Positions 14,218 through 29,126 of a stretch of DNA of 64,000 bases are shown piece by piece; the first letter of the stretch is position 1; each line of letters begins with the position of its first letter. This DNA is from Sphingobacterium griseoflavum. GTDB taxonomy: Bacteria; Bacteroidota; Bacteroidia; Sphingobacteriales; Sphingobacteriaceae. The DNA is taken from positions 62,001-126,000 of the forward strand of contig NZ_BNAF01000007.1 in the NCBI RefSeq assembly GCF_014653155.1, read 5' to 3'. The notes below the pieces were generated by a model that ran no database searches, was not told the DNA's origin, and worked only from the letters and a program-made list of their open reading frames with translations. A program made the position numbers and the translations under genes.

Positions 14218-14378
14218 ATGAGAAAACTATTTTTAGTCGCGTTTACGTGCTTTATGGCCTTTACGCAAAGCTGTTCGAAGATTGAGGAAGGCCTTAAACT
14301 GCCGGATGAAAATGCATCGGCACTCCATTTACCCAAGGAAAGTGAAGCGTATGGGAAAGCGGTGGCACAAGAAATAAG
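14218..14378 (+). repeat. anchor repeat, copy 1
   Basis: 161 bp encoding the signal peptide and first 54 residues of lipoprotein 1. It matches 15834-15994 with only two substitutions, whereas the sequences on both sides are unrelated. This points to recent duplication or gene conversion. Confidence 0.9.
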
Positions 14379-15141
14379 AGGGATCGTGAACAACTGTAAC
14401 AAAATGGATATAGATCTCTCGACTACGGGTGGCTCCCCTGAATCTAGAACCCGGTTTTATCAGGATATTTATAAGGCTAGCCCTACGGTAGCGCGGACGA
14501 AGGTTTCAATCAATCGATTACAAACAACTCCGGAAGTTTATTTTGAAAAAATAAATAACCTGACACCGATCCAAATTGAGTTCGTGGAGCGAATTGTAAA
14601 AGCGTGTGAACGAAGTACATCTCATGAAGATCTTACCGAAAAATTATCTACTATTGTAAAAAAAATATCGGAGAAAGTTCCTGAAATTCAGCAAGAACGA
14701 CTATTCAATGTAATAGCAGTCATGTATTATGGATTGAATGAGATACTGCGTCTTGAAAAACAAGGGCATATATCTACGGCAGGAGGTTTTAATACACATA
14801 TGCCGAGGTTGAAGTCTTTTTCCGAGAATGGTGATGGCGGAGGAGGATGGGGAGCCGCATGCCGTAAATTTTTAGCCACGGGATGGGTTATAGCTGTTGG
14901 AGAGCCGACTCCTGCCGGTGAGATTGTGATGTCTGTTGCTACGGTTGTTGTCGCAGGAGTTTTGTTATATGAGGTGATTACTTGTAGAACATCAGGCACA
15001 AGTGGAAACCCAAATCAAAGTTATTGTCAATTGAGATATGCAGGTTGTAAATCATCTATTCCAAATGGCTGTCATATTTGCTTACGATATTGTCTAGTTC
15101 AAGGAACATGGCCTCCATATTCATCTCATAAATGTACGTAA
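14218..15141 (+). CDS. effector-like polymorphic lipoprotein 1 (full length)
   Basis: 307 residues, family not recognised. Signal peptide and lipobox end at Cys19 (TQSC, then SKIEEG, similar to a surface-export signal). Residues 1-54 are nearly identical to those of the gene at 15834. Residues 55-190 are helical and differ between copies. A boundary motif PRLKSF (196-201) is followed by a Gly-rich linker NGDGGGGWGAAC and a hydrophobic segment (about 217-256). The 51-residue tail is Cys-rich, with spacing C-x6-C, then C-x2-C-x3-C, then W and a final C. The next gene starts 6 bp later. The layout suggests a surface-displayed toxin with an exchangeable C-terminus; that is inference. Confidence 0.7.
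   Translation: MRKLFLVAFTCFMAFTQSCSKIEEGLKLPDENASALHLPKESEAYGKAVAQEIRGIVNNCNKMDIDLSTTGGSPESRTRFYQDIYKASPTVARTKVSINRLQTTPEVYFEKINNLTPIQIEFVERIVKACERSTSHEDLTEKLSTIVKKISEKVPEIQQERLFNVIAVMYYGLNEILRLEKQGHISTAGGFNTHMPRLKSFSENGDGGGGWGAACRKFLATGWVIAVGEPTPAGEIVMSVATVVVAGVLLYEVITCRTSGTSGNPNQSYCQLRYAGCKSSIPNGCHICLRYCLVQGTWPPYSSHKCT
14811..14985 (+). repeat. hydrophobic-module repeat, copy 1
   Basis: About 175 bp coding the Gly-rich junction and hydrophobic segment of lipoprotein 1. It is nearly identical to 17456-17630 in the tail cassette, whereas the Cys-rich tails that follow differ. The module therefore moved independently of the tail. Confidence 0.85.
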
Positions 15142-15147
15142 ATAGTT

Positions 15148-15468
15148 ATGATAGCTTTTAAATTGACTTTTAAGAACGATAGTTTTGTGCTGCCAATATC
15201 ACAGCAGGAAAATACCACTATACATGTTTATGACAATGGCGGAGTTGGCTTGTTATACGCTACTTCATTGAACGAAGACTCCCTTAAACAGGATGTATGG
15301 TTGGATTCTACGGTAGATATCGGAGATGTTTTAGAGTTAGAAATTATGGAAACAAATGAGGTAAGCAAGCCTCTGGAAACAGTAACAGTAGAGAAGATAA
15401 TTAAAAAATCTAAACGGGAGGTTTTCCTTGAATTAGAGCAGGATTTAAAACAAAGGGGATTATTATGA
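15148..15468 (+). CDS. small immunity-like protein, pair 1 first gene
   Basis: 106-residue protein without signal peptide or Cys. It shares the plan of the sixteen-member family in this array: a start like MIAF/MKGF plus beta-strand, a central W, then L-x-IGDVLELEI, and a C-terminal helix ending in a Leu-rich RGLL. It starts 6 bp after lipoprotein 1 and overlaps the next gene by 4 bp (ATGA). A near-copy lies at 21142 with 7 changes in 106 residues. By position, candidate immunity to lipoprotein 1; family name unknown. Confidence 0.75.
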   Translation: MIAFKLTFKNDSFVLPISQQENTTIHVYDNGGVGLLYATSLNEDSLKQDVWLDSTVDIGDVLELEIMETNEVSKPLETVTVEKIIKKSKREVFLELEQDLKQRGLL

Positions 15469-15791
15469 AAGGATTTAAATTATCTATCAATGATCATAAA
15501 GCTATAATGGGCGGCATCCAAGACGGGAGTACCGGTGTTATTGTGTCACACAAAGATGGGAAACTTCAGGTGTTCTTTAATAGCATGGATAAGACGGGTA
15601 TGCTGTCGTATACCTGGTGCGCTGACAATTTATCTTTCGAAGACAAATTGAAAATAAGTTATCAAAATATTTATGAAGAGTTAAGCCCAATAGATGTTTT
15701 GGATTATACAAACCAAGAAGAGATGGATAGAGTAGCGCTGGAATCATACTATCAACTCAGAGACGAATTGATTGAAGAAGGTTTAATTTGA
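15465..15791 (+). CDS. small immunity-like protein, pair 1 second gene
   Basis: 108 residues: start MKGFKLSINDHKA, a central YTWCADNLSFEDKLKISY and the C-terminal helix YYQLRDELIEEGLI that typifies this array. No signal peptide. It overlaps the previous gene by 4 bp, implying coupled translation and possibly a complex of the two products. The copy at 21459 differs at only two residues. Function inferred from position. Confidence 0.75.
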   Translation: MKGFKLSINDHKAIMGGIQDGSTGVIVSHKDGKLQVFFNSMDKTGMLSYTWCADNLSFEDKLKISYQNIYEELSPIDVLDYTNQEEMDRVALESYYQLRDELIEEGLI

Positions 15792-15833
15792 CGATACATA
15801 ATCTATCATGACAAACACTTTGAAACACACCAG

Positions 15834-15994
15834 ATGAGAAAACTATTTTTAGTCGCGTTTACGTGCTTTATGGCCTTTACGCAAAGCTGTTCGAAGATTG
15901 AGGAAGGCCTTGAACTGCCGGATGAAAATGCATCGGCACTCCATTTACCCAAAGAAAGTGAAGCGTATGGGAAAGCGGTGGCACAAGAAATAAG
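15834..15994 (+). repeat. anchor repeat, copy 2
   Basis: 161-bp match to 14218-14378 with two substitutions, starting exactly at the ATG and ending at codon 54. Confidence 0.9.
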
Positions 15995-16769
15995 GAACAT
16001 TGCGCTTAATTTCAGTAAAAAAGGAATCGACTACACAAGGGTCAATACATCTCCTGTCATTAAAAAACAGGTCATCACCGAGTTGTATAAGGATATCCCT
16101 AGAGTAGTCCAAACAACATCTACACAAGCCAACTTCACTTTTGAAAGTAGGGTTCCCCCTGAGAATTTTAGTGCGCTAACGGATGCCCAGCTGAGACTTA
16201 TTGACAAGATATTGGATGAATATAGGATCAGTAAATCAGATGAAGCACTTTTCAAAAAACTTAAAATTTTAAATGAAGAGATCTACAGGTTGCCGGAGAT
16301 TGAACAAGAACGGCTTTTTAACCTATCAGCCGCATTGTATTATGGTTTAAAAGAAATTAATAGCTTAAAGAAGGAGGGGCTAATGGCTCCTACAGGATTA
16401 TTTTCGTCAAATAATCCTAGGCTCAAGTCTTTTTCAAAAAATGGGGATGGTGGTTCGGGAGGTAATACCGGGGAGTGTAAACAGACTGAGTCGGCAACGG
16501 CAATTGCTGTGGGCTCAGAAATCGTTATAAACGGTGTGAAACATGTAGTGAAGCAAAGTGCATATGCTGCGGCCAGAGCACTTTGGATTGTGACTGCTTG
16601 TTTGTTACAAACATCCAGTGGGCCCGATTGTGAAGCCTTGGCGATTCGATGTGTTGAAAAGAGGTATAAAATTGTTAATGGGCGACCAGTCAAAATGGAA
16701 TGTGCTCCATGTAGAAGCTTTTGTGTTTCTAATGGATATTGGAACCATCGTTCATGTCCTTTAAACTGA
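15834..16769 (+). CDS. effector-like polymorphic lipoprotein 2 (full length)
   Basis: 311 residues. The N-terminal 54 residues match lipoprotein 1 except for one Lys/Glu change; the region 55-190 is similar only in outline (EIQQERLFN versus EIEQERLFN). The boundary motif PRLKSF (195-200) leads to a Gly-rich linker and a different hydrophobic segment (AYAAARALWIVTACLL), shared with the decayed piece at 20161. The Cys tail (DCEALAIRC, then MECAPCRSFC and GYWNHRSCPLN) resembles that of the cassette at 17436. Followed 9 bp later by its own pair of small genes. Same inferred role as lipoprotein 1. Confidence 0.7.
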   Translation: MRKLFLVAFTCFMAFTQSCSKIEEGLELPDENASALHLPKESEAYGKAVAQEIRNIALNFSKKGIDYTRVNTSPVIKKQVITELYKDIPRVVQTTSTQANFTFESRVPPENFSALTDAQLRLIDKILDEYRISKSDEALFKKLKILNEEIYRLPEIEQERLFNLSAALYYGLKEINSLKKEGLMAPTGLFSSNNPRLKSFSKNGDGGSGGNTGECKQTESATAIAVGSEIVINGVKHVVKQSAYAAARALWIVTACLLQTSSGPDCEALAIRCVEKRYKIVNGRPVKMECAPCRSFCVSNGYWNHRSCPLN

Positions 16770-16778
16770 TAGTACAAA

Positions 16779-17081
16779 ATGAAAGGTTTTCGTATTAAAA
16801 TTGATAGACAAAAAACTGACATAGCTGTAAGAAATGGGGTGGTTGTTATCGGGGTTGATATCGGGGGGGATCTTCATATAAATGGCCTAGATTTTTACTC
16901 AGCAGAGCGTTTAAAATGGAGTAATATTACACTTAGAGATGGTATTAAAGTCAAAATAACAGCTGCTGACATCGATCGCACAAATCCGCCGGTGTTGAAG
17001 GAAAGGATGGAAAACGAAGCAATCTTGAAAGAATACAATGATTTAAAGACAATGCTTACGGAGAAAGGGCTTCTAAAATGA
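16779..17081 (+). CDS. small immunity-like protein, pair 2 first gene
   Basis: 100 residues, type A of the array: MKGFRIKIDRQ start, alternating hydrophobic strands, LKWSNITLRDGIKVKITAADI in the middle and the terminal helix LKEYNDLKTMLTEKGLLK. No signal peptide, no Cys. It lies 9 bp after lipoprotein 2 and overlaps the next gene by 4 bp. Candidate immunity partner for lipoprotein 2. Confidence 0.75.
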   Translation: MKGFRIKIDRQKTDIAVRNGVVVIGVDIGGDLHINGLDFYSAERLKWSNITLRDGIKVKITAADIDRTNPPVLKERMENEAILKEYNDLKTMLTEKGLLK

Positions 17082-17443
17082 AAGGAATGAAAATGCGATT
17101 CCGGAACGATATTTCTTATGTAACGGTTGATTTTCCCGTATCGATATTCGTATACCAAAGGTTTGGTTATTTTCATCTTGAGGTCTCTGGTTTGGATTCC
17201 AAAGAAACTATCCACAAATGGATTGATGAAAAAATAGAGGTCGGCGAATATATAGAATTCGAGGTTGTAGACATAGAGGAACACCTATCCACAGAGGCGG
17301 CACAAAAGGAAGCCGCGTTTGTGGATGTCCCTTTGGGTGAAGATGGGTTAAAGGAGATGTATGCCCAGCAACTAGCAAAATTTTATGCATTGCAAGCGTA
17401 TCTTCTTAGGGAGGGGCTGATCGAGCAATCTATCAATGGTTAA
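17078..17443 (+). CDS. small immunity-like protein, pair 2 second gene
   Basis: 121 residues, type B: MKGMKMRFRNDISYVTV, then IFVYQRFGYFHLEVSG, WIDEKIEVGEYIEFEVVDIE, and a C-terminal helix FYALQAYLLREGLIE. Related type-B proteins lie at 18102, 20691 and 22140. The last codons run past the usual GLI end and overlap the start of the cassette ORF at 17436 by 8 bp, probably a junction effect. Confidence 0.75.
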   Translation: MKGMKMRFRNDISYVTVDFPVSIFVYQRFGYFHLEVSGLDSKETIHKWIDEKIEVGEYIEFEVVDIEEHLSTEAAQKEAAFVDVPLGEDGLKEMYAQQLAKFYALQAYLLREGLIEQSING

Positions 17444-17795
17444 TGTCCCGCCGCTAAAATCATTCTCCGAGGAAGGTGATGGCGGAGGAGGATGGGGAGC
17501 CGCATGCCGTAAATTTTTAGCCACGGGATGGGTTATAGCTGTTGAAGAGCCGACTCCTGCCGGTGAGATTGTGATGTCTGTTGCCACCGTTTTTGTCGCA
17601 GGAGTTTTGTTATATGAGGTGATAACATGTCCGAAAAAAGAAGACTTAGATCATTGTAGACCATTGCTGAATAAATGCGTAACAAGGGGACACAAGTATG
17701 TAAACGGAATAAGGATAAAAATGCAGTGTGATCAATGTTGTTTCTTTTGTACAAGTCAGGGATATTGGGATTATGCTAATTGTCCTTTAAATTAA
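17436..17795 (+). CDS. tail cassette: effector C-terminus without anchor
   Basis: 119-residue intact ORF that begins at the boundary motif (VPPLKSFSEEGDGGGGWG). It contains only the Gly-rich junction, hydrophobic segment and Cys tail; there is no signal peptide or N-terminal anchor. The first 60 residues nearly equal those of lipoprotein 1 (DNA 17456-17630). The tail (DHCRPLLNKC, MQCDQCCFFC, GYWDYANCPLN) resembles that of lipoprotein 2. Whether it is translated (the ATG lies within the previous gene's end) or serves as a silent recombination donor is open. A small-gene pair follows 7 bp later. Confidence 0.65.
   Translation: MVNVPPLKSFSEEGDGGGGWGAACRKFLATGWVIAVEEPTPAGEIVMSVATVFVAGVLLYEVITCPKKEDLDHCRPLLNKCVTRGHKYVNGIRIKMQCDQCCFFCTSQGYWDYANCPLN
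17456..17630 (+). repeat. hydrophobic-module repeat, copy 2
   Basis: Near-identical to 14811-14985 over about 175 bp; similarity stops at the Cys that closes the hydrophobic segment. Confidence 0.85.
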
Positions 17796-17802
17796 TTGCC
17801 CT

Positions 17803-18105
17803 ATGAAAGGATTAGATATTGAAGTGAACGATCAAAAACAAGGTATCGGCGTTGTAAGAGGCACTATTGTTTTATTGATTGAAACGAATAATGGTATGAG
17901 CATTACAGGTTCTGATACTAGCAGAGGACTTCAAGTTAATTGGAATATTCCGCAGCTTAATGATGGCGATAAAATTAAGATTATGGTTTCCGAGAAGTTG
18001 AATAACCTTGCGGAAAGCTACTATACAAAAATGCACAAATCAGCGCTTCTGGAGGAATATTACCGTTTGGAAAAACTTCTTAAAGATGAGGGAAAAATAA
18101 AATGA
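17803..18105 (+). CDS. small immunity-like protein, pair 3 first gene
   Basis: 100 residues, type A: MKGLDIEVNDQKQGIGV, VNWNIPQLNDGDKIKIMVSE and terminal helix LLEEYYRLEKLLKDEGKIK. It follows the tail cassette by 7 bp and overlaps the next gene by 4 bp. Candidate immunity partner of the cassette product. Confidence 0.75.
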   Translation: MKGLDIEVNDQKQGIGVVRGTIVLLIETNNGMSITGSDTSRGLQVNWNIPQLNDGDKIKIMVSEKLNNLAESYYTKMHKSALLEEYYRLEKLLKDEGKIK

Positions 18106-18461
18106 AAGGCTTTAGTATAAGATATGCCGGTCGCATGATCAATATTTCGCCTAAACATAACGGCATAATTATGATTAATCAAAAAGACGATCAATTTCAT
18201 ATGCGGGTTTACGGAATGGAAGAAGGAGCTCGCGATAAGGCAGAGTTTTCTTATTGGCTTGATTCAACCTTGTCTATCGGTGAGCTTATAGAGATAGAGA
18301 TAAGAGATATTCAGCAATCTTCAGCGCCAATGATTGAAAAAATGGCTTTTTCGGATGTCGTGGAGATTAGTGATCATGAATATGAGACAATATTGAATGA
18401 CAGTATGTTAAATTATCTTGCTATTCAACGTATTCTCAAAGAAGAGGGATTGATCACGTAG
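18102..18461 (+). CDS. small immunity-like protein, pair 3 second gene
   Basis: 119 residues, type B: MKGFSIRYAGRMINISP, IIMINQKDDQFHMRVYG, FSYWLDSTLSIGELIEIEI, and an end helix LNYLAIQRILKEEGLIT. Coupled to the preceding gene by an ATGA overlap. Confidence 0.75.
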   Translation: MKGFSIRYAGRMINISPKHNGIIMINQKDDQFHMRVYGMEEGARDKAEFSYWLDSTLSIGELIEIEIRDIQQSSAPMIEKMAFSDVVEISDHEYETILNDSMLNYLAIQRILKEEGLIT

Positions 18462-18485
18462 TCGTAATTCTTAATAAATTTTAAA

Positions 18486-18800
18486 ATGATTGGATTTGAA
18501 ATAGCTATTGGTAGCGCACAAAAAGTACTTAATGTAGCCACTGATAATACATTAATAGTGGTTTTAGACCCTGGGGAATCAAGCGAAGAGAGTTCTTTAT
18601 CTGTGGTAGGTTCAGATTCCTCATTCAATTATATCAATTGGCCCGACCAGAAGTTAAAGATCGGAGACAAAATAAGGATTAAGATTGCAAAAATAGAAAA
18701 CGTTTCTCCTCCTGCAGCCAGTAATCCAAAAGAAAGAGCTGTATTGCTGGAATCTTATAACAGACTTAAGGTTAAACTTAAAAAGAAAGGACTATTATAA
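18486..18800 (+). CDS. small immunity-like protein, pair 4 first gene
   Basis: 104 residues, type A: MIGFEIAIGSAQKVLNV, INWPDQKLKIGDKIRIKIAKIE and LLESYNRLKVKLKKKGLL. This pair has no effector piece in front of it, so it is an orphan. It is followed after 8 bp by a type-C gene. Confidence 0.75.
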   Translation: MIGFEIAIGSAQKVLNVATDNTLIVVLDPGESSEESSLSVVGSDSSFNYINWPDQKLKIGDKIRIKIAKIENVSPPAASNPKERAVLLESYNRLKVKLKKKGLL

Positions 18801-18808
18801 ATAAAACT

Positions 18809-19135
18809 ATGAAAGGATTAATCACAAAGCGCAACGGAAGGGATTATAGAATACCCTGTGCCGTAGTACTATGTATCGCCGCTCCACGCGATGGGTTTAT
18901 TTTAGAAGGTGGCGGGTATATCCATTCGCGTCAAAAGTTAGAGGAAAACATCGAATACGAATTTGAACTGGTGGAAATCGATAGGCCTTCGGAAATGTTG
19001 TCCCAAGATAATGACTTTTCTGAAGTAGATTTTGAACATGAAAAATTGATTGAGGGCGATGATTATCAGTTACGTCAGGATATGCAAGAATTTCGAAGGC
19101 TGGAAGCGATATTGAAAGAAGAAGGAACGATTTAG
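18809..19135 (+). CDS. small immunity-like protein, pair 4 second gene (type C)
   Basis: 108 residues: MKGLITKRNGRDYRIPC, hydrophobic strands, DFSEVDFEHEKLIEGDDYQL and the end helix FRRLEAILKEEGTI. It resembles the gene at 19841 (DYRIP/EYRIP, RRLEAILKEEG/KRLEAILKQEG), forming a third subtype. No signal peptide. Confidence 0.75.
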   Translation: MKGLITKRNGRDYRIPCAVVLCIAAPRDGFILEGGGYIHSRQKLEENIEYEFELVEIDRPSEMLSQDNDFSEVDFEHEKLIEGDDYQLRQDMQEFRRLEAILKEEGTI

Positions 19136-19512
19136 TTCGAAGTAATGTGCCGCGGCTAAAATCATTCTTCGAGAACGGTGATGGCGGAGGATCGAGGAAT
19201 TGTAGAGCAGAGCGGTCGGCATTTGCCATAGCTATTGGTTATATCAACGCTGTGGGCGAAAAAGCGGTAAGGGGTGACACGAGCTGCGGGAGCGGCGATA
19301 GGTGCATTATATAATTACTCGGTGTGTAAATAGGATATTAGATAACACTGGGCGATGTTCACAAATTTTTTCTGTATGTCAAAGCCCCGCTAATCATCCG
19401 ACCTAGGTAAATAGCAAACCCGGCACCAGTATGTCCAAATGTGCCGAATGCTTGAATCAATGTAACCGGTCAAATGGCCAATGGAGATGTAGCACGGATT
19501 TTAAAAATCCTT
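19136..19512 (+). pseudogene. decayed tail cassette
   Basis: Remnant effector C-terminus starting at the boundary motif (NVPRLKSFFENGDGGG). It runs into a hydrophobic module unlike the other copies (SAFAIAIGYINAVGEKAV), then shifts frame near 19273-19280 and continues as AAGAAIGALYNYSVCK before a stop. After a broken middle, the tail reappears (MSKCAECLNQC, then GQWRC) and ends with TAA at about 19520. Frameshift and stops make it unlikely to be functional, but it retains the modules. A small-gene pair follows. Confidence 0.75.
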
Positions 19513-19531
19513 ATAGATAAAATTGATAAAA

Positions 19532-19834
19532 ATGAAAGGTTTTAAAATTGCAATCAATGGTCATGCTGCCATAACACTCCATAGCTTTTTCAGCCATGTT
19601 ATCTTGACCAAAATAGACAATAGGTATCATCTTTTGATGTATGGGGGGGATGAGCAAAACAATCGGTTTGCATGGGAAGCAAAAGTTTTGAAAGAGGGCG
19701 ATTCTATTGACATCCAAGTTCAGGACCTTGAGGCGGGCACGGTACCGAAAGTTACTCCCGCTGAAGATCTTGCTAGCCTTAAAGAAGAATATGAACATCT
19801 GAAGCCAGAGCTTGAAAAAAGAGGATTAATTTAA
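19532..19834 (+). CDS. small immunity-like protein, pair 5 first gene
   Basis: 100 residues, type A: MKGFKIAINGHAAITL, FAWEAKVLKEGDSIDIQVQDLE, and LKEEYEHLKPELEKRGLI. An in-frame TTG at 19523 exists, but the ATG at 19532 gives the MKGF start shared by the family. It lies just after the decayed cassette. Confidence 0.75.
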   Translation: MKGFKIAINGHAAITLHSFFSHVILTKIDNRYHLLMYGGDEQNNRFAWEAKVLKEGDSIDIQVQDLEAGTVPKVTPAEDLASLKEEYEHLKPELEKRGLI

Positions 19835-19840
19835 TAAAAT

Positions 19841-20158
19841 ATGATTGGGATAATGACGAATTGGGACGGTCAAGAATACAGAATTCCTGCCGATGTTTAT
19901 CTAAGCTTAAATCAAGACACGCTAATTCTGCAGTCTGAATATCTTTCTATTTGGAAAACAGCTGCAGTAGGAACGGTGTTCGAGTTGTCGATTTCCAGTT
20001 TTGATAAGGCTACCGGCAAAGTTTTAGAAAATCCAGATTTTTCACATGTGGATTTAGCATATCGAGAATTAGTAGATGACGAAGAGTGGCAACTACAAAA
20101 GAGATTGGAGAAGTTTAAAAGACTGGAAGCCATACTAAAACAGGAAGGAATGATCTAA
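19841..20158 (+). CDS. small immunity-like protein, pair 5 second gene (type C)
   Basis: 105 residues: MIGIMTNWDGQEYRIPADV, VGTVFELSISSFDKATG, and FKRLEAILKQEGMI at the end. Closest in this window to the gene at 18809. The start is 6 bp after the previous stop. Confidence 0.75.
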   Translation: MIGIMTNWDGQEYRIPADVYLSLNQDTLILQSEYLSIWKTAAVGTVFELSISSFDKATGKVLENPDFSHVDLAYRELVDDEEWQLQKRLEKFKRLEAILKQEGMI

Positions 20159-20385
20159 TACAAATCTCCTACCGCTAGTGCACTTTGGATTGTGACGGCT
20201 TGTTTGTTAATGAGTGGGATACACCTGATTATCACGCAAGATGTCAGCCATACCTTCAAGCTTGTATTCGCAAAAATAGTCGTTTATCACAAAGCCAAAA
20301 AATGGATTACAGCAGTTGTTATGGTTATTGTATAGGAAATCATGGTCGGTGGGACGTTAGATGTATCGTGAATGGTTGGTTGTAA
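20159..20385 (+). pseudogene. second decayed tail cassette
   Basis: Fragment of an effector C-terminus. It begins inside the hydrophobic segment (ASALWIVTACLL, matching lipoprotein 2), shifts frame near 20210, and continues as a Cys tail (RCQPYLQAC, then SSCYGYC, GRWDVRC) to a stop at 20385. The anchor, boundary motif and linker are missing. Confidence 0.7.
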
Positions 20386-20388
20386 ATT

Positions 20389-20694
20389 ATGAAAGGTTTT
20401 GAAATAAACATAAATGAGCGAATTTTTCGCGTTGGAGTAGACTTAGGTATGCTACTCATTGTTATACACAACGATCAGGGAGGCTTAACAATTACCGGCG
20501 TCGATGATGTTTCCGGAAAGAAGTTGGACTGGGGAAAGTTCGAGCTCAGTGCGGGTGACATAATTTCCGTCACCGCGCTTGATGTTGCATGTAATACGGT
20601 AGATGCTGAATCTGAGGATAGAGATGTGCAGACGTTGCTTACCGAGTATCATCATTTAAGAAGGTATCTCACTAAACAGGGTTTAATCAAATGA
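20389..20694 (+). CDS. small immunity-like protein, pair 6 first gene
   Basis: 101 residues, type A: MKGFEININERIFRVGV, LDWGKFELSAGDIISVTALDV and LLTEYHHLRRYLTKQGLIK. It starts 3 bp after the decayed cassette's stop and overlaps the next gene by 4 bp. Confidence 0.75.
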   Translation: MKGFEININERIFRVGVDLGMLLIVIHNDQGGLTITGVDDVSGKKLDWGKFELSAGDIISVTALDVACNTVDAESEDRDVQTLLTEYHHLRRYLTKQGLIK

Positions 20695-21053
20695 ATGGAA
20701 TAATAATTAACTATAAGGGCCAAGAGATCAATATTTCAACAGCGTTCCTGTCGACAATTTTCCTATACCAAGATTATGGGACGTATTTTGTCGAAGTTGG
20801 GGGAACGGAGAGGAATCCTGATGGGACCGGAATGTCTTATAAATGGTTAGACACTAAAATAGCGTTAGGAGAGACGATAGAAGTTAACATAGTAGGGAAT
20901 GAAAATAAGACCTTATCAAGCACCGTCACGGAAAAAGCTGAACTTCCTGAATCTGTAACGTTATTGGAAGAAAATAACGAAGAATTCCATAGCCGACTGC
21001 TTGATAAATTTTATAAGCTTCAAAATATATTAATCAAAAAGGGGCTGTTATAA
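20691..21053 (+). CDS. small immunity-like protein, pair 6 second gene
   Basis: 120 residues, type B: MNGIIINYKGQEINIST, IFLYQDYGTYFVEVGG, YKWLDTKIALGETIEVNI, and FYKLQNILIKKGLL at the end. ATGA overlap with the preceding gene. Confidence 0.75.
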   Translation: MNGIIINYKGQEINISTAFLSTIFLYQDYGTYFVEVGGTERNPDGTGMSYKWLDTKIALGETIEVNIVGNENKTLSSTVTEKAELPESVTLLEENNEEFHSRLLDKFYKLQNILIKKGLL

Positions 21054-21141
21054 GGAGAACATTCGATTGCTTTTTCTAAAAAATGGTTTTTGTAGCACTT
21101 AATGCCATTCATGTTTAGCTTATATATGTACGTAAATAGTT

Positions 21142-21462
21142 ATGATAGCCTTTAAATTGACTTTTAAGAACGAGAGTTTTGTGTTGCCAATATCGCAGCA
21201 GGAAAATACCACTATCCATGTCTATGACAATGGCGGAGTTGGCTTCTTGTATGCGATTTCATTGAACAAAGATTCTCTTACACAGGATGTATGGTTGGAT
21301 TCTACGATAGATATCGGCGATGTTTTAGAGTTAGAAATTATGGAAACAAATGAGGTAAGCAAGCCTTTGGAAACAGTAACAGTAGAAAAGATAGATAAAA
21401 AATCTAAACGGGAGGTTTTCCTTGAATTAGAGCAGGATTTAAAACAAAGGGGACTATTATGA
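21142..21462 (+). CDS. small immunity-like protein, pair 7 first gene (copy of 15148)
   Basis: 106 residues, identical to the gene at 15148 except for seven substitutions. It is an orphan copy of the lipoprotein 1 partner, about 6 kb away, and overlaps the next gene by 4 bp. Confidence 0.8.
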   Translation: MIAFKLTFKNESFVLPISQQENTTIHVYDNGGVGFLYAISLNKDSLTQDVWLDSTIDIGDVLELEIMETNEVSKPLETVTVEKIDKKSKREVFLELEQDLKQRGLL

Positions 21463-21785
21463 AAGGATTTAAACTATCTATCAATGATCATAAAGCTATA
21501 ATGGGCGGTATCCAAGACGGGAGTACCGGTGTTATTGTGTCACACAAAGATGGGAAACTTCAGGTGTTCTTTAATAGCATGGATAAGACGGGTATGCTCT
21601 CGTATACCTGGTGCGCTGACAATTTATCTTTCGAAGACAAATTGAAAATAAGTTATCAAAATATTTATGAAGAGTTAAGCCCAATAGATGTTTTGGATTA
21701 TACAAACCAAGAAGAGATGGATAGCGTAGCGCTGGAATCATACTATCAACTTAGAGACGAATTGATGGAAGAAGGTTTAATTTGA
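21459..21785 (+). CDS. small immunity-like protein, pair 7 second gene (copy of 15465)
   Basis: 108 residues, differing from the gene at 15465 only at two positions (Arg/Ser in EEMDxVAL and Ile/Met in DELxEEGLI). It is far more conserved between the copies than its partner gene. Confidence 0.8.
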   Translation: MKGFKLSINDHKAIMGGIQDGSTGVIVSHKDGKLQVFFNSMDKTGMLSYTWCADNLSFEDKLKISYQNIYEELSPIDVLDYTNQEEMDSVALESYYQLRDELMEEGLI

Positions 21786-21836
21786 CGATACCTAATCTAT
21801 CATGATAAACACCTGTCCAGTTTATAAATCAGTTAT

Positions 21837-22143
21837 ATGAAGGGTTTTGAAATTACCGTAAATAAAAAAGGAAAAAATAACGGCTGCAGTCTACGCCGGC
21901 GTTGTCTTAATTACTTTATCCAGCAACGATGGTATCGATATCAATGGCGAAGATGAAGAGTTAGGAGTTTCTTTGCAATGGAAGCAAGCTAACCTCCACG
22001 TCGGAGACAAGATTGAAATAATGGCGACGGAGATAGAGGTCGTGAGTTCCGTTGTAGAGAGAGGCGATATTGACAGACAGCATATGCTCGCTGCATATCA
22101 AAATTTAAAAGAGTTTCTAATTAAAGAAGGAAGATTAAAATGA
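21837..22143 (+). pseudogene. frameshifted immunity-like gene, pair 8 first gene
   Basis: Starts MKGFEITVNK as type A, but the frame breaks in an A-rich stretch (AAATAAAAAAGGAAAAAATAAC, about 21861-21882). The other frame continues normally: ITAAVYAGVVLITLSSN, LQWKQANLHVGDKIEIM, and YQNLKEFLIKEGRLK, ending in an ATGA overlap with the next gene. One indel would restore a full protein, so it is a fresh pseudogene or a phase-variable gene. Confidence 0.75.
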
Positions 22144-22490
22144 AAGGATTTGAAATACGATGTAGTGACCGAACTTTTATTGTTTCTGCGGAGCCATGGA
22201 CAGCTGTTCTGATCTATCAGAGGTATGGATATTATTACGTCGATTTGGAGGGATGGGAAATAAAGCCTGAAGAGCGTATTATTCCTAGAAAACGGTTTAG
22301 TCTGACCCTACCTTCCGATACCATTATACAGGTGGACTTTAAAATAATAGAAAAAACTACTGTTTCCAAATTAAGTAACAATGTGGTGGAAGCTGTCGAT
22401 TTTTTCCCCTTGGTAGAGGAAGACTTTCAACAAATGACAGCCAAATTTCACACGTTGGAAGCATTGCTTAGGAAAGAAGGCATCATTTAA
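22140..22490 (+). CDS. small immunity-like protein, pair 8 second gene
   Basis: 116 residues, type B: MKGFEIRCSDRTFIVSA, VLIYQRYGYYYVDLEG and the end helix FHTLEALLRKEGII. Last member of the array; the ATPase gene follows 74 bp later. Confidence 0.75.
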   Translation: MKGFEIRCSDRTFIVSAEPWTAVLIYQRYGYYYVDLEGWEIKPEERIIPRKRFSLTLPSDTIIQVDFKIIEKTTVSKLSNNVVEAVDFFPLVEEDFQQMTAKFHTLEALLRKEGII

Positions 22491-25057: not shown

Positions 25058-26884
25058 ATGCAAAAAAAATTTATCTTGATTATTATCATACTCACCGTCT
25101 TTATTGGAGCATGTCAAAGACAGGAAATCGTATCCGAGGCAGGGAACGATCTTAGGAAAACTGCTTCGGGTCTGGGAGAAAAACTTGAAAACCCCTATTC
25201 ACTCCCAAATATGAAAAGAGCTATACAATTATTGATGTCTGTTGCTCCCGATGCAGATTTTCCAAGTGTAAGTGATCTGTCGCCGACACATTTATATGTA
25301 CGGTTCCTACCAGCAGACTATGAGGAAATGCAAGTTCTGGAGCAGGACAGTACACTGCTGTATGATCCCGTTCCGTTTGGCTATGAAAACTCCATGGATT
25401 TGGATTACTACCATGATCCTGAAATACCGGAAGATAAAATAACATGGCTTTATGCATTTGTTCCTCATGATTATAGTTTCCCCGATGTCCAGTACGAGGT
25501 TTTGGAAGAAATATACATGCCGGAAGATGGCGAGGATGAACTTGAGACCTTAGCGATGAAGATGACCGATAATCTTGAAAATGAAGTTGTCAACGGGCAT
25601 CAGCTCATGTCGAGCAACCTGAACGACAGGGAACTTCTCGGTTTATTCAGCAGGAGGTTCAACCCTTCGGGGACAATAATGGTACAAAATAGCTTTGGTG
25701 GATCAGTGCCCTTGCGGCGAGCTGCAATATACATAAAAACGCTTTGGTGGAATGATGTATCCCAGACAAATGATAACGGTTATTATTTTGTAAATAGGAG
25801 ATATAAGCATACTCCTTCCGTTAAGATATGGAATAGGAACAGCACGAACTATACGACGCAGAGATGGACGGAACATGCTGGATTTTTGGTCAGCGATAAA
25901 TTGGGCGAGGGAAAAGTGTTCAATTACACGATAGAACACACCACGGGAAGCAAACGCGACTTATGGGTTAAGGCAACAATAAACAATGCTTATGTGATTT
26001 ACGATGATTTCACGAGAGCTAATCAGATAGCTCGTCCGGATGGTTTAAGAACTTGGGTCTTTAAAAGTTCGAATTACGGTGGAGCTCCATTGCTCCACAA
26101 CCGCACACTCCGATCTTACAGTGTACATTATCCAGGGATTGCAAGTAGGAACGGAGAAAACTTTGGATCACTCGTTGGGAAGACAGGTATATTTTCCCTC
26201 AGTCCTATCATGGATCTTATTACGCGCGCAACGATTAGCCATGGCAATCTTCCCGATATTGTCATCGGTACTTCCGGCAAGAATACCAGTGAGATCTATG
26301 CTATGGTATTTCATGAAGCGGCACATTACAGCCATAAGGCAAAAGTAAGCAATGCTTATTGGGCAAATGTGCAGTATCAAGCTATGTTCGATAAAACAAA
26401 TGGCACTTATGGGGATGGATCGCCAGCCTACGCAACGTATACTGGCGTAGCTGAAGCATGGTCTTATTTTATTGAATATCAGCTGATGTATCAAACGTTT
26501 CCAAGTTCTACAAGCGCAACAATCCCAAATATAAGGGATGGTAGGTATAATAGAAATATGACAGCATACTACGGTGATCCCTCCACTATTCCGGGAAGTG
26601 CGAGTGACGCCGCAAGTTTTGCCCGTTGGATCCCATCCGGATTATTCCGAGATTTGATGGATAGTGACAACAATGCTTTGCAGCTTAGAAGTGGCACAAG
26701 TTATAGTTCCATAGTGGACAGCGGAACAGACAGGGTTTCAGGGTTTACATATAAACAGCTCTATGACCTGTTGACTCCTGATGTTACTTCTATGACAGTA
26801 TTGAGACAAAAGATAGTTGCGCAGTATCCACCTAAGAATACCGCCAATCAAGTTACCGAGTTATTTAGGTTGTATGGCTATTAG
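25058..26884 (+). CDS. zincin-like metallopeptidase lipoprotein
   Basis: 608 residues with signal peptide and lipobox IGAC followed by QRQEIVSE. The zinc-binding motif FHEAAHYSH is near residue 420, with a candidate third ligand Glu about 45 residues later in GVAEAWSYFIEY; the N-terminal 200 residues are acidic and unrecognised. The stop codon overlaps the start of the next lipoprotein gene by 11 bp. The pairing with a duplicated, rapidly diverging lipoprotein would suit a secreted protease with cognate surface partners, but no family is recognised with certainty. Confidence 0.65.
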   Translation: MQKKFILIIIILTVFIGACQRQEIVSEAGNDLRKTASGLGEKLENPYSLPNMKRAIQLLMSVAPDADFPSVSDLSPTHLYVRFLPADYEEMQVLEQDSTLLYDPVPFGYENSMDLDYYHDPEIPEDKITWLYAFVPHDYSFPDVQYEVLEEIYMPEDGEDELETLAMKMTDNLENEVVNGHQLMSSNLNDRELLGLFSRRFNPSGTIMVQNSFGGSVPLRRAAIYIKTLWWNDVSQTNDNGYYFVNRRYKHTPSVKIWNRNSTNYTTQRWTEHAGFLVSDKLGEGKVFNYTIEHTTGSKRDLWVKATINNAYVIYDDFTRANQIARPDGLRTWVFKSSNYGGAPLLHNRTLRSYSVHYPGIASRNGENFGSLVGKTGIFSLSPIMDLITRATISHGNLPDIVIGTSGKNTSEIYAMVFHEAAHYSHKAKVSNAYWANVQYQAMFDKTNGTYGDGSPAYATYTGVAEAWSYFIEYQLMYQTFPSSTSATIPNIRDGRYNRNMTAYYGDPSTIPGSASDAASFARWIPSGLFRDLMDSDNNALQLRSGTSYSSIVDSGTDRVSGFTYKQLYDLLTPDVTSMTVLRQKIVAQYPPKNTANQVTELFRLYGY

Positions 26885-27670
26885 AATAAATTGCAAAAGA
26901 CTTGTCTTGTATAGTTCTGTCTTAGTGCTATCCATATGCACTGCTATGCGGTGCAAGAAAGATGATTATGTTTATTATGACCTACAGGGTTTGGAAGGAA
27001 AAAAAATAGATATTAGCCTTACTCCAACCAACTTGTCGTATAAAGTAGGAGAGTTGATTTCGATCACAGGGACGATGTTGCCGCAAGATATTGGTCTTGA
27101 TGATTTTAAGAGCTTAGAGGATCCAAGCCTTTCGGATTTCCGTTTTTACGATCAAAACAATTTACCAAATATCGACTATGACGCATTTGGATTAGTAGGT
27201 GTCAAAACAGGATTTAATAGCGATAAAACGGCATACAACATAAAGTATACCTACGTAATTAAGAAGTCAGGTTTATATAAAATAATGAATGATCCTTCCT
27301 TTTCGAGTCAAAATATATACAGTTTGATTTATATAAGCGTATTGACAGGCAAACGTAAACCTAAAGGGTATCGGGGGTATGTTCCGTTAATTTTCACGAA
27401 TAACGATAAGACGTTTATCGATATAGAGGTCGTAGAATAGGACTACATAACCCAATATGCCATCAGCAGCATTATGCTAAAGGTGCTGATGGTGACGTTT
27501 ATAACCTACGTAAAATGAGAAACCCTAGGCTGAACGTTATATGCTGTCTGCTAACCTGCCTATTATGGGCAGGATGTAAACGAAAGTTGCCCGAGCCTCT
27601 TAATCCGAGAGAGGGAAAACCATCTATTTTGGACTCTGTGAACATGCGTTTTAAGGATGTGTATGAAAAA
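26854..27670 (+). repeat. 817-bp tandem duplication, copy 1
   Basis: The unit runs from the end of the metallopeptidase gene (TACCGAG at 26854) through the variable lipoprotein, a spacer and the start of an S41-like gene. Copy 2 begins at 27671. Flanks of the lipoprotein gene are almost identical between copies; the core is not. Confidence 0.85.
26874..27440 (+). CDS. variable surface lipoprotein, copy 1
   Basis: 188 residues from ATG at 26874, inside the end of the metallopeptidase gene. The signal peptide ends AMRC-KKDDYVY: the CKKDD stretch matches the Bacteroidota lipoprotein surface-export signal (K followed by two acidic residues), though Arg before the Cys is unusual for a lipobox. 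The first 33 and last 20 residues nearly equal those of copy 2 (27691); the middle is strongly diverged. A larger start in the same frame (26817) would lie inside the peptidase gene and is not used here. Confidence 0.65.
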   Translation: MAIRINCKRLVLYSSVLVLSICTAMRCKKDDYVYYDLQGLEGKKIDISLTPTNLSYKVGELISITGTMLPQDIGLDDFKSLEDPSLSDFRFYDQNNLPNIDYDAFGLVGVKTGFNSDKTAYNIKYTYVIKKSGLYKIMNDPSFSSQNIYSLIYISVLTGKRKPKGYRGYVPLIFTNNDKTFIDIEVVE

Positions 27671-27685
27671 TACCGAGTTATTTAG
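27515..27685 (+). pseudogene. truncated S41-peptidase-like lipoprotein start, copy 1
   Basis: 56-codon ORF: signal peptide with lipobox WAGC, then KRKLPEPLNPREGK, ILDSVN and RFKDVY, the usual opening of Bacteroidota S41 peptidase lipoproteins. It is cut off at the duplication junction, after which the reading frame ends in sequence taken from the metallopeptidase gene end. Confidence 0.65.
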
Positions 27686-28512
27686 GTTGTATGGCTATTA
27701 GAATAAATTGCAAAAGACTTGTCTTGTATAGTTCTGTCTTAGCGCTATCGATATGCACTGCTATGCGGTGCAAGAAAGATGATTATGTATATGAAAGTGT
27801 AAATAGAATTGACGGAGCTAAAGTATTAGTAACTCTATTGCCAGAAAAAACAAGCTATACGGTAGGGGATACGGTCTCGATCGAGGGGACATTTTTACCA
27901 AAAGATTTTGGGATGGAAGATTTTTCGATGATAGAAGACAGCCCTTGGGTGAAGGATTTCATGTTTTTTAAAGTCGGATCGCATGATATCCTGTATGATG
28001 TAATTTCAATTATTCAAAATGACAACTTTAGAAATGAAAGTTTTTCATCAGATTACCTATCTTATAGCTTTAAAAGATCATATCGGCTTGAAAGAGCAGG
28101 GAGTTTTCATATAAATCATGGCGTAGAGAACACATGGAACAATAAGGATGCTCAGGGTAATATAATTTACAGTGCGTTGAGTATAACGATACTTTCAGGA
28201 AAAAGAAAACCTAGAGGATATCGTACTGATGCAATAATGTATTTTACGAATAACGATAAGACGTTTATCGATATAGAGGTCGTAGAATAGGACTACATAA
28301 CCCAATATGCCATCAGCAGCATTATGCTAAAGGTGCTGCTGGTGACATTTATAACCTACGTAAAATGAAAAACCCTAGACTGAACGGTATATGCTGTCTG
28401 CTAACCTGCCTATTCTGGGCAGGATGTAAACGAAAGTTGCCCGAGCCTCTTAATCCGAGAGAGGGAAAAACCATCTATTTTGGACTCAGTGAACACGCGT
28501 TTTAAGGATGTA
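27671..28512 (+). repeat. tandem duplication, copy 2
   Basis: Second copy of the unit at 26854-27670. It is slightly longer because the lipoprotein core is longer. Sequence identity ends near 28512 in the S41 fragment. Confidence 0.85.
27691..28290 (+). CDS. variable surface lipoprotein, copy 2
   Basis: 199 residues. Signal and CKKDDYVY start equal copy 1; the C-terminal TNNDKTFIDIEVVE is identical. The core keeps only the outline (VGDTVSIEGTFLPKDFGMEDF versus VGELISITGTMLPQDIGLDDF; SGKRKPRGYR versus TGKRKPKGYR). It is probably a beta-sandwich protein at the cell surface. Duplication with a diversified core suggests selection for different partners. Confidence 0.65.
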   Translation: MAIRINCKRLVLYSSVLALSICTAMRCKKDDYVYESVNRIDGAKVLVTLLPEKTSYTVGDTVSIEGTFLPKDFGMEDFSMIEDSPWVKDFMFFKVGSHDILYDVISIIQNDNFRNESFSSDYLSYSFKRSYRLERAGSFHINHGVENTWNNKDAQGNIIYSALSITILSGKRKPRGYRTDAIMYFTNNDKTFIDIEVVE

Positions 28513-28530
28513 TATCTTTGGAATGATCTG
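28365..28530 (+). pseudogene. S41-peptidase-like fragment, copy 2, frameshifted
   Basis: Same opening as 27515, but one extra A in the run after GAGAGGG shifts the frame, ending the ORF at 28505. The original frame can be followed further (DSVNTRFKDVYLWNDL, typical of S41 N-terminal domains) before similarity is lost. The peptidase body is missing. Confidence 0.65.
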
Positions 28531-28532
28531 AT

Positions 28533-28613
28533 CGATCTTTGGATGCAAATGCCTTTAAGGAAATTGGAGAAGGCCTTCGCAAAAAAATCATGAAGGATCT
28601 GGGGCTTAAATAA
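28533..28613 (+). pseudogene. hicA toxin C-terminal fragment
   Basis: A short reading frame ends FKEIGEGLRKKIMKDLGLK, which fits the C-terminus of HicA mRNA interferases (SKEVxxGLxxKIxKDAGL). No N-terminal half or catalytic His region is present. The hicB fragment follows 37 bp later, as in a hicAB operon. Confidence 0.55.
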
Positions 28614-28650
28614 GCATCAGGTTCTCATGAAGCCTAAAAGGGACAACATT

Positions 28651-28746
28651 ATGAAAACCTTGAAAATCATCATCGAGCGCCGTGCCGATATGTTCGGTGT
28701 TTATGCAGAGAATGCCGAAGGCATCTATGGGGGAGGAGAAAAGTGA
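28651..28746 (+). pseudogene. hicB antitoxin N-terminal fragment
   Basis: 31 codons: MKTLKIIIERRADMFGVYAE followed by NAEGIYGGGE, the typical N-terminus of Bacteroidota HicB antitoxins. A stop follows where the remaining ~35-100 residues should be. With the preceding fragment it marks a dead toxin-antitoxin locus. Confidence 0.65.
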
Positions 28747-29021
28747 TTATGAAAATATATATCATTTTGATGTGGAAAGCCTATTAAAGTACTATAAAGT
28801 ACTATTTACCAACTCCAACTCCAACTCCAACGACAGCTACAGCATTATTCTTCTGGGCTAAAGAAGCCTCGCCAGCCCCAACTGAAAAAAATAGAGGAAG
28901 GGCTTCATCGGCTTGTTGCTGAATTACAGGCACTGGACTTAGTATAGGTCTCTTAAAATATTGAACTATAAATGACCTAACGCTAACAGTTTGGGTCACA
29001 GATTTTTTGCTGCCATAAAAA
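28747..29021. other. non-coding debris before tRNA-Glu
   Basis: No supported gene. It includes a 10-bp direct repeat (AAAGTACTAT twice near 28785-28805) and a TCCAAC/CCAACT hexamer run near 28809-28830. A minus-strand ORF here begins inside the tRNA gene and was rejected. Confidence 0.5.
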
Positions 29022-29051: not shown

Positions 29052-29054
29052 AAG

Positions 29055-29126
29055 TAGCCCGTAGGGGAATCGAACCCCTGTTTCAAGAATGAAAATCTTG
29101 CGTCCTAACCCCTAGACGAACGGGCC
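29055..29126 (-). tRNA. tRNA-Glu (TTC)
   Basis: 72-nt cloverleaf on the minus strand. The acceptor GGCCCGT pairs with ACGGGCT, the anticodon stem CAAGA/TCTTG holds loop TTTTCAT with anticodon TTC, and the T-arm AGGGG-TTCGATT-CCCCT is perfect. CCA is not encoded. It marks the boundary between accessory and core genes, with its 3' end facing the accessory side. Confidence 0.95.

Follow-up and report, generated by a model that had tools for sequence, protein, structure and literature searches.

The general logic of polymorphic toxin systems has been described previously (Zhang et al. 2012, PMC3482391), and in that survey Imm65 is the only lipoprotein immunity protein named. Orphan modules of contact-dependent growth inhibition (CDI) systems are displaced and kept for immunity (PMC4927057), and fast-changing orphan immunity genes are known in Bacteroidales (PMC12247911). 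VgrG2b, in which a TTR domain precedes a thermolysin-like gluzincin, kills in the periplasm; the periplasmic immunity protein that binds it is an outer-membrane lipoprotein in Salmonella arizonae (PMC6899460). Here we analyze a 64,000-nucleotide stretch (the window) of the 4.42-Mb genome of Sphingobacterium griseoflavum (contig NZ_BNAF01000007.1; G000:C7:62001-126000 in our numbering of genomes and contigs). On its plus strand, the window encodes a predicted zinc protease that is itself a lipoprotein (the zincin; 25058-26884, a 608-aa open reading frame, ORF), followed by two smaller lipoproteins, LP1 (26874-27440, 188 aa) and LP2 (27691-28290, 199 aa). Judging from sequence, the locus is probably a module of the polymorphic toxin-immunity type built from two lipoproteins, an effector and its antidote, with the zincin as the predicted effector protease, LP1 as its predicted cognate inhibitor (immunity protein), and LP2 as a predicted orphan immunity protein. 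Such a version of a polymorphic toxin-immunity module, with a lipoprotein protease, would be one for which we found no description in the literature.

Comparison with described systems

Like polymorphic toxin and polyimmunity loci, the locus has a predicted effector gene immediately followed by a small gene, and the downstream copies each carry a 3' fragment of the effector. In Bacteroidales members of the family, a near-constant front is followed by a variable catalytic end, and the downstream repertoire is variable as well. In contrast to polymorphic toxins, the locus has no CDI, Rhs or similar delivery part, both the effector and its partners are lipoproteins, and the recombination joints are the leader and tail of the lipoprotein itself. 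If the lipoproteins are antidotes, the locus would pair a protease weapon that is a lipoprotein with immunity proteins that are lipoproteins too, an arrangement hardly present in the main polymorphic-toxin survey.

VgrG2b is the closest biochemical precedent for the zincin. Both this system (VgrG2b/Tpe with PA0261/Tpi; PMC6899460) and the present locus have a gluzincin (HExxH and a distal Glu) behind a TTR-like beta domain and, downstream, a small gene whose product is a periplasmic or lipoprotein partner. The zincin differs in having its own signal peptide and lipobox and an unrelated N-terminal domain; it has neither a DUF4157 match nor a VgrG or PAAR part and thus falls outside the VgrG2b group. 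In the SitA/SitI system of Myxococcus (PMC5562445, PMC8546572), as in the predicted arrangement here, the toxin is a lipoprotein with a variable part and the immunity gene is located downstream; however, a protease domain and lipoprotein immunity are predicted only here. The receptors of outer membrane exchange are TraA/B. The recombinase-associated acquired interbacterial defense (rAID) arrays likewise contain fast-changing orphan immunity genes. In contrast to them, each array described here is preceded by its own effector, whose 3' end it carries, and no recombinase was noticed beside the array on reading the neighboring ORFs, no systematic recombinase scan having been made.

Duplicated unit with near-identical ends and a divergent core

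The gene order of the locus is zincin, LP1, truncated head of an S41 peptidase gene, zincin stub, LP2, and a second, frameshifted S41 head; the end of the zincin gene and the start of LP1 overlap by 11 nt, and the truncated S41 head is that of a further lipoprotein gene. The first-pass annotation had proposed tandem duplication of a lipoprotein unit with near-identical flanks and a divergent core. The duplication and its coordinates hold, but the content of the unit had to be amended: the duplicated unit (26854-28515) consists of the last ~9 zincin codons, the lipoprotein gene, and a truncated S41-peptidase head. The copies are related by direct repeats of 122 nt (98%; 26854/27671, spacing 817) and 228 nt (97%; 27392/28242, spacing 850) and a further in-register repeat of 52 nt (92%), and BLAST aligns 324 nt of the 3' block at 91%. 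Three in-register repeat blocks at such identities are far beyond chance.

The 5' constant block of copy 1 (26854-26975, 98% identical to 27671-27792) includes the last zincin codons and the lipoprotein leader up to CKKDDYVY. The 3' constant block of copy 1 (27392-27671, 97%/92% identical to 28242-28515) comprises the lipoprotein C-tail, a spacer, and the truncated S41 head (ORF start ~27515), and directly abuts the zincin tail stub of copy 2 (27664-27702), which retains the last ~9 codons (...TELFRLYGY*) and matches the zincin 3' end at 26854-26884. In the 3' constant block of copy 2 (28242-28515), the S41 head is frameshifted. The S41 heads were identified from homologs in loci L023 and L024 and from an intact S41 gene in L021. 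Homologous heads are located downstream of the lipoprotein in genomes G035 and G012, and an intact 502-aa S41 peptidase occupies this place in G023.

LP1 and LP2 have similar leaders (94 of 96 nt, 98%) and tails (45 of 48 nt, 94%), whereas their cores are different (213 of 417 nt, 51%; 37% in protein). The corresponding synonymous divergence (dS) rises from 0.05 in the leader to 1.35 in the core and falls to 0.12 in the tail. Identity drops from 97% to ~50% within ~20 codons of the lipobox and recovers only in the last ~15 codons; thus, divergence does not follow a smooth gradient along the unit, and its boundaries coincide with those of the mature domain.

Mosaic recombination of ends and cores

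Zincin-family sequences were found in 7 of the 94 genomes of the genus, and the lipoprotein in 6. LP1-type cores are present in the window, on contig 16 of G023 and in G029, and LP2-type cores in the window, on contig 19 of G023 (three copies), and in G035 and G012. Within G023, a second genome of the Sphingobacterium group, the leaders of LP1- and LP2-type genes are 91-92% alike at the nucleotide level, whereas their cores are only 46-48% alike, so that in this relative too the flanks are far less divergent than the core. Conversely, genes of the same core type from different genomes have cores 65-73% alike and leaders only ~60% alike; the LP1 core is 73% identical in nucleotides to that of the lipoprotein behind the G023 zincin. 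Leaders and tails therefore cluster by genome, whereas cores cluster by type.

For the flanks and for the cores, maximum-likelihood trees constrained to the genome grouping were compared with trees constrained to the core-type grouping. The flank alignment rejects the core-type tree (log-likelihood difference 60.8, approximately unbiased (AU) test p=4e-6) and the core alignment rejects the genome tree (138.3, AU p=2e-7); the segment borders were picked after the data had been seen, and these differences are judged too large to be an effect of that choice. The conflict implies that the core types predate the split of these genomes, and that recombination either swapped the cores or homogenized the ends within each genome. 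Thus, mosaic recombination of ends and cores in the two genomes is established with very high confidence, in agreement with the earlier proposal that drift is insufficient and that cores were exchanged (or, equivalently, ends homogenized). The two genomes, each holding two ancient cores in its own near-identical leader and tail, offer a clear example from nature of core exchange in cassette style.

Plain point drift of a tandem copy is ruled out because the flanks and the cores give conflicting trees, and conservation of the ends by functional constraint is ruled out by the ~60% similarity of leaders between genomes for one core type. Strong diversifying selection, the alternative offered by the first-pass annotation, is not supported as the sole cause, since the ratio of nonsynonymous to synonymous divergence (dN/dS) ranges from 0.12 to 0.81. 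The cores compared with their G023 orthologs have values of 0.12 for LP1 and 0.27 for LP2, indicating purifying selection, and the recent G023 copies have values near 0.6-0.8.

The zincin family

The zincin consists of a signal peptide with a lipobox Cys, a conserved N-terminal domain with the signature 'GEKLENPYS..NM ... YVRFLP ... HDP', a TTR/CarboxypepD_reg-like middle part, and a gluzincin domain. The active-site motif HEAAH is located at residues 419-423 and is complemented by E466; H419, E420, H423 and E466 are invariant in 26 relatives. The best fold match of the predicted structure (predicted local distance difference test, pLDDT, 68) is the thermolysin-like neutral protease of B. cereus, 1npc (probability 1.0, template modeling (TM) score 0.55 on the target, E=1.1e-4). 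With the HExxH motif, the distal Glu, and the fold of this model, the protein has the predicted features of a gluzincin (MA(E), thermolysin-like). Searches of Pfam, NCBIfam and PDB sequences assigned the zincin to no family, and no Pfam match was obtained at E<=0.1, DUF4157 included.

The zincin is a member of an unnamed Bacteroidota family, with relatives found in Sphingobacteriaceae and Bacteroidales by GTDB and genome scans and one in Chryseobacterium (Weeksellaceae) by a plasmid search. The unannotated zincin/lipoprotein pair is thus present in several Bacteroidota orders, gut Bacteroidales included. Five closely related Bacteroidales zincins (L059, L062, L063, L064 and L067) combine a constant N-terminal part, 89-97% identical up to the catalytic region, with a variable C-terminal part, 46-63% identical from HExxH on except for one pair at 89%.

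Lipoproteins downstream of the zincin

In ~26 of the 38 zincin loci, a lipoprotein gene is located directly downstream, which is the position of an immunity gene, and often 2-4 such genes stand in a row. These lipoproteins form three sequence families. Profile comparison detected no relation of the Sphingobacterium family to the other two, and a weak mutual relation between the latter. The occupation of one position by such families would be expected of interchangeable inhibitors. Pfam, NCBIfam and PDB sequence searches assigned the lipoproteins to no family, and a plasmid search with LP2 gave no match. The lipoprotein model is poor (pLDDT 61.5), with only weak Ig/cohesin-like matches and none at E<=1e-3, and therefore no fold is claimed.

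Both LP1 and LP2 carry CKKDD after the lipobox. The extended sequence C-K-K-D-D-Y fits the optimal surface-export motif C-X-K-(D/E)2-X defined in Capnocytophaga (PMC5080379), so that both lipoproteins carry a predicted Bacteroidota lipoprotein export signal (LES), as had been noticed from the sequence at first reading. In Bacteroidales, the four loci that are long enough contain 3-4 tandem lipoproteins with tails ~92% and cores ~43% alike, and core variants recur beside different zincin ends (L059_2 and L067_1, 85%; L063_3 and L067_2, 93%).

Recurrent duplication of the lipoprotein and loss of the protease

Of the zincin, extra lipoprotein copies retain no more than the final 9 to ~120 codons. 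Tail-bearing extra copies with differing breakpoints occur in several lineages: in the window (LP2), on contig 19 of G023 (three copies), in G154 (L101), and on a mobilizable Chryseobacterium plasmid (L082), and each of these loci has a downstream orphan module composed of a fragment of the putative toxin and a putative immunity gene. On contig 19 of G023, the repeated order is S41 head, zincin tail and lipoprotein, with zincin tails of 38-45 codons, an S41 head of ~450 nt, and breakpoints unlike those of the window. In G154, a zincin and a lipoprotein are followed by two pairs of zincin fragment and lipoprotein, with the same 11-nt overlap. The order on the Chryseobacterium plasmid is zincin, lipoprotein, lipoprotein and zincin C-terminal fragment.

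The lipoproteins outlast the protease. In the second locus of the S. griseoflavum genome itself (L006; G000:C12:824-2278), the zincin has an internal deletion of residues ~235-553, and the lipoprotein, which represents a third core type, is intact. Intact lipoprotein ORFs beside broken zincins were also observed on contig 16 of G023, where the zincin has an in-frame stop, on contig 19 of G023, and in G035 and G012, where only zincin remnants are left; G029 has a lipoprotein without a zincin. An intact zincin-lipoprotein pair is located on a 6.65-kb contig (L022; G048:C37) together with NikA/MobC, a relaxase, a resolvase and a ParA-like protein. This contig is mobilizable and plasmid-like; no terminal overlap proving circularity was found in it.

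Proposed function and alternative explanations

The polymorphic toxin-immunity reading draws on the tree conflict, the tail-bearing extra copies, and the lipoproteins beside broken zincins, and further on the frequent downstream lipoprotein, the variable ends in Bacteroidales, the mobile relatives, and the VgrG2b precedent. The earlier suggestion of an effector and its partner gained support from the orphan lipoproteins with zincin tails, the broken zincins beside intact lipoproteins, and the variable catalytic ends. In the proposed mechanism, the zincin would be a surface or periplasmic zinc protease aimed at other bacteria, and the product of the overlapping LP1 gene would bind and block it, shielding the producer. 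As the zincin has its own lipobox, the encounter between effector and antidote would take place in the envelope or at the surface. LP2 would have arisen as an orphan immunity gene by tandem duplication of the zincin 3' end, the lipoprotein gene and the head of the next gene, with its inhibiting core changed and its export signal, leader and C-tail kept; different cores may answer different zincin variants. The zincin tail could be retained either because the lipoprotein start lies inside it, allowing translational coupling, or as a recombination site.

Several observations weigh against this interpretation. No delivery system was identified in a thin test limited to one marker of the type VI secretion system (T6SS): VasE (PF05936) was absent from the source genome, and its control was positive only in E. 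coli, so the test is weak. In the Sphingobacterium trio of zincins, constant and variable parts are not sharply separated, and only a stretch near residues 481-520 is variable. In the four Bacteroidales genomes compared, variation in the first lipoprotein does not follow that in the zincin end, and therefore cognate pairs cannot be assigned. The dN/dS ratio stays below 1 in every comparison. Finally, ~10 Cryptobacteroides-type zincins (L058, L060, L061, L065, L066, L068-L071 and L079) have no such lipoprotein downstream but are immediately followed by a barrel-like gene and a fimbria-like operon, as read from the sequences without profiles; given this type, the family may include non-toxin members. 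More tentatively, and with some doubt on our part, the family could represent a weapon that acts by contact or through vesicles across the Bacteroidota. Protease and antidote would both be surface lipoproteins, and antidote cassettes with fixed ends and exchangeable cores would be amplified behind the effector, protecting against rivals' proteases without the need to carry them.

Alternatively, the lipoprotein may serve a surface protease involved in nutrition or matrix turnover, either as a simple inhibitor for self-protection or as a maturation partner, with the extra copies resulting from dosage and drift rather than from warfare between strains. A dedicated inhibitor encoded beside a secreted protease accounts for the gene pair and the overlapping start, and the fimbria-like operons around some zincins of the family, as well as the failure to find a delivery machine with the one marker tried, point in the same direction. 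We nevertheless consider this explanation unlikely, as it leaves unexplained the lipoproteins kept with a broken or absent zincin, the core variants common to genomes with different zincin ends, the constant-front/variable-end zincins, and the sparse, plasmid-borne distribution (7 of 94 genomes in the genus).

The export signal, the near-constant leader and tail around a variable core, reminiscent of cassette variation, and the low G+C content of the lipoproteins (35% vs 43% for the zincin) would also suit variable surface antigens or phage or host receptors. The cassette ends would then serve export and the cores would vary to escape recognition, the zincin being a passenger whose 3' end marks the duplication breakpoint. 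This explanation appears improbable: across the phylum, the position behind the zincin is held by lipoproteins of three sequence families, S41 relatives that lack a zincin are not accompanied by such a lipoprotein, and dN/dS of the cores between orthologs is 0.12-0.27 rather than above 1. Still less credence is given to two proteases in one operon, with LP1-type cores answering the zincin and LP2-type cores the neighboring S41 peptidase. LP1-type genes indeed follow full-length zincins (in the window and on contig 16 of G023), and an LP2-type gene precedes the intact S41 gene on contig 19 of G023; however, LP1 in the window is also followed by an S41 head, and elsewhere in the phylum the zincin is followed by the lipoprotein in the absence of S41. 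S41 as the true partner was rejected, since no such lipoprotein stands next to related S41 genes at other places in the genus.

Other features of the window

The region 28556-28960, where the second S41 head is truncated, contains a remnant resembling the end of HicA and the start of HicB (HicAB assigned by eye), with 96% identity over 144 nt to G000:C3:192646-192790. A tRNA-Glu gene (29054-29126, minus strand) lies directly past the array and is a possible insertion site.

The first-pass annotation had also compared the locus with an array at 14-22 kb. The layout is similar, but the proteins look unrelated, so the two are analogous only. This array (14218-22490) begins with two larger lipobox proteins (14218 and 15834) that are 44% identical and have almost identical N-termini; no convincing Pfam match was found among the six of its proteins that were scanned. 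It further contains a displaced C-terminal fragment (17436) and 15 small ORFs, mostly paralogous, with two near-duplicate pairs (93% and 98%), and looks like another effector/polyimmunity array.

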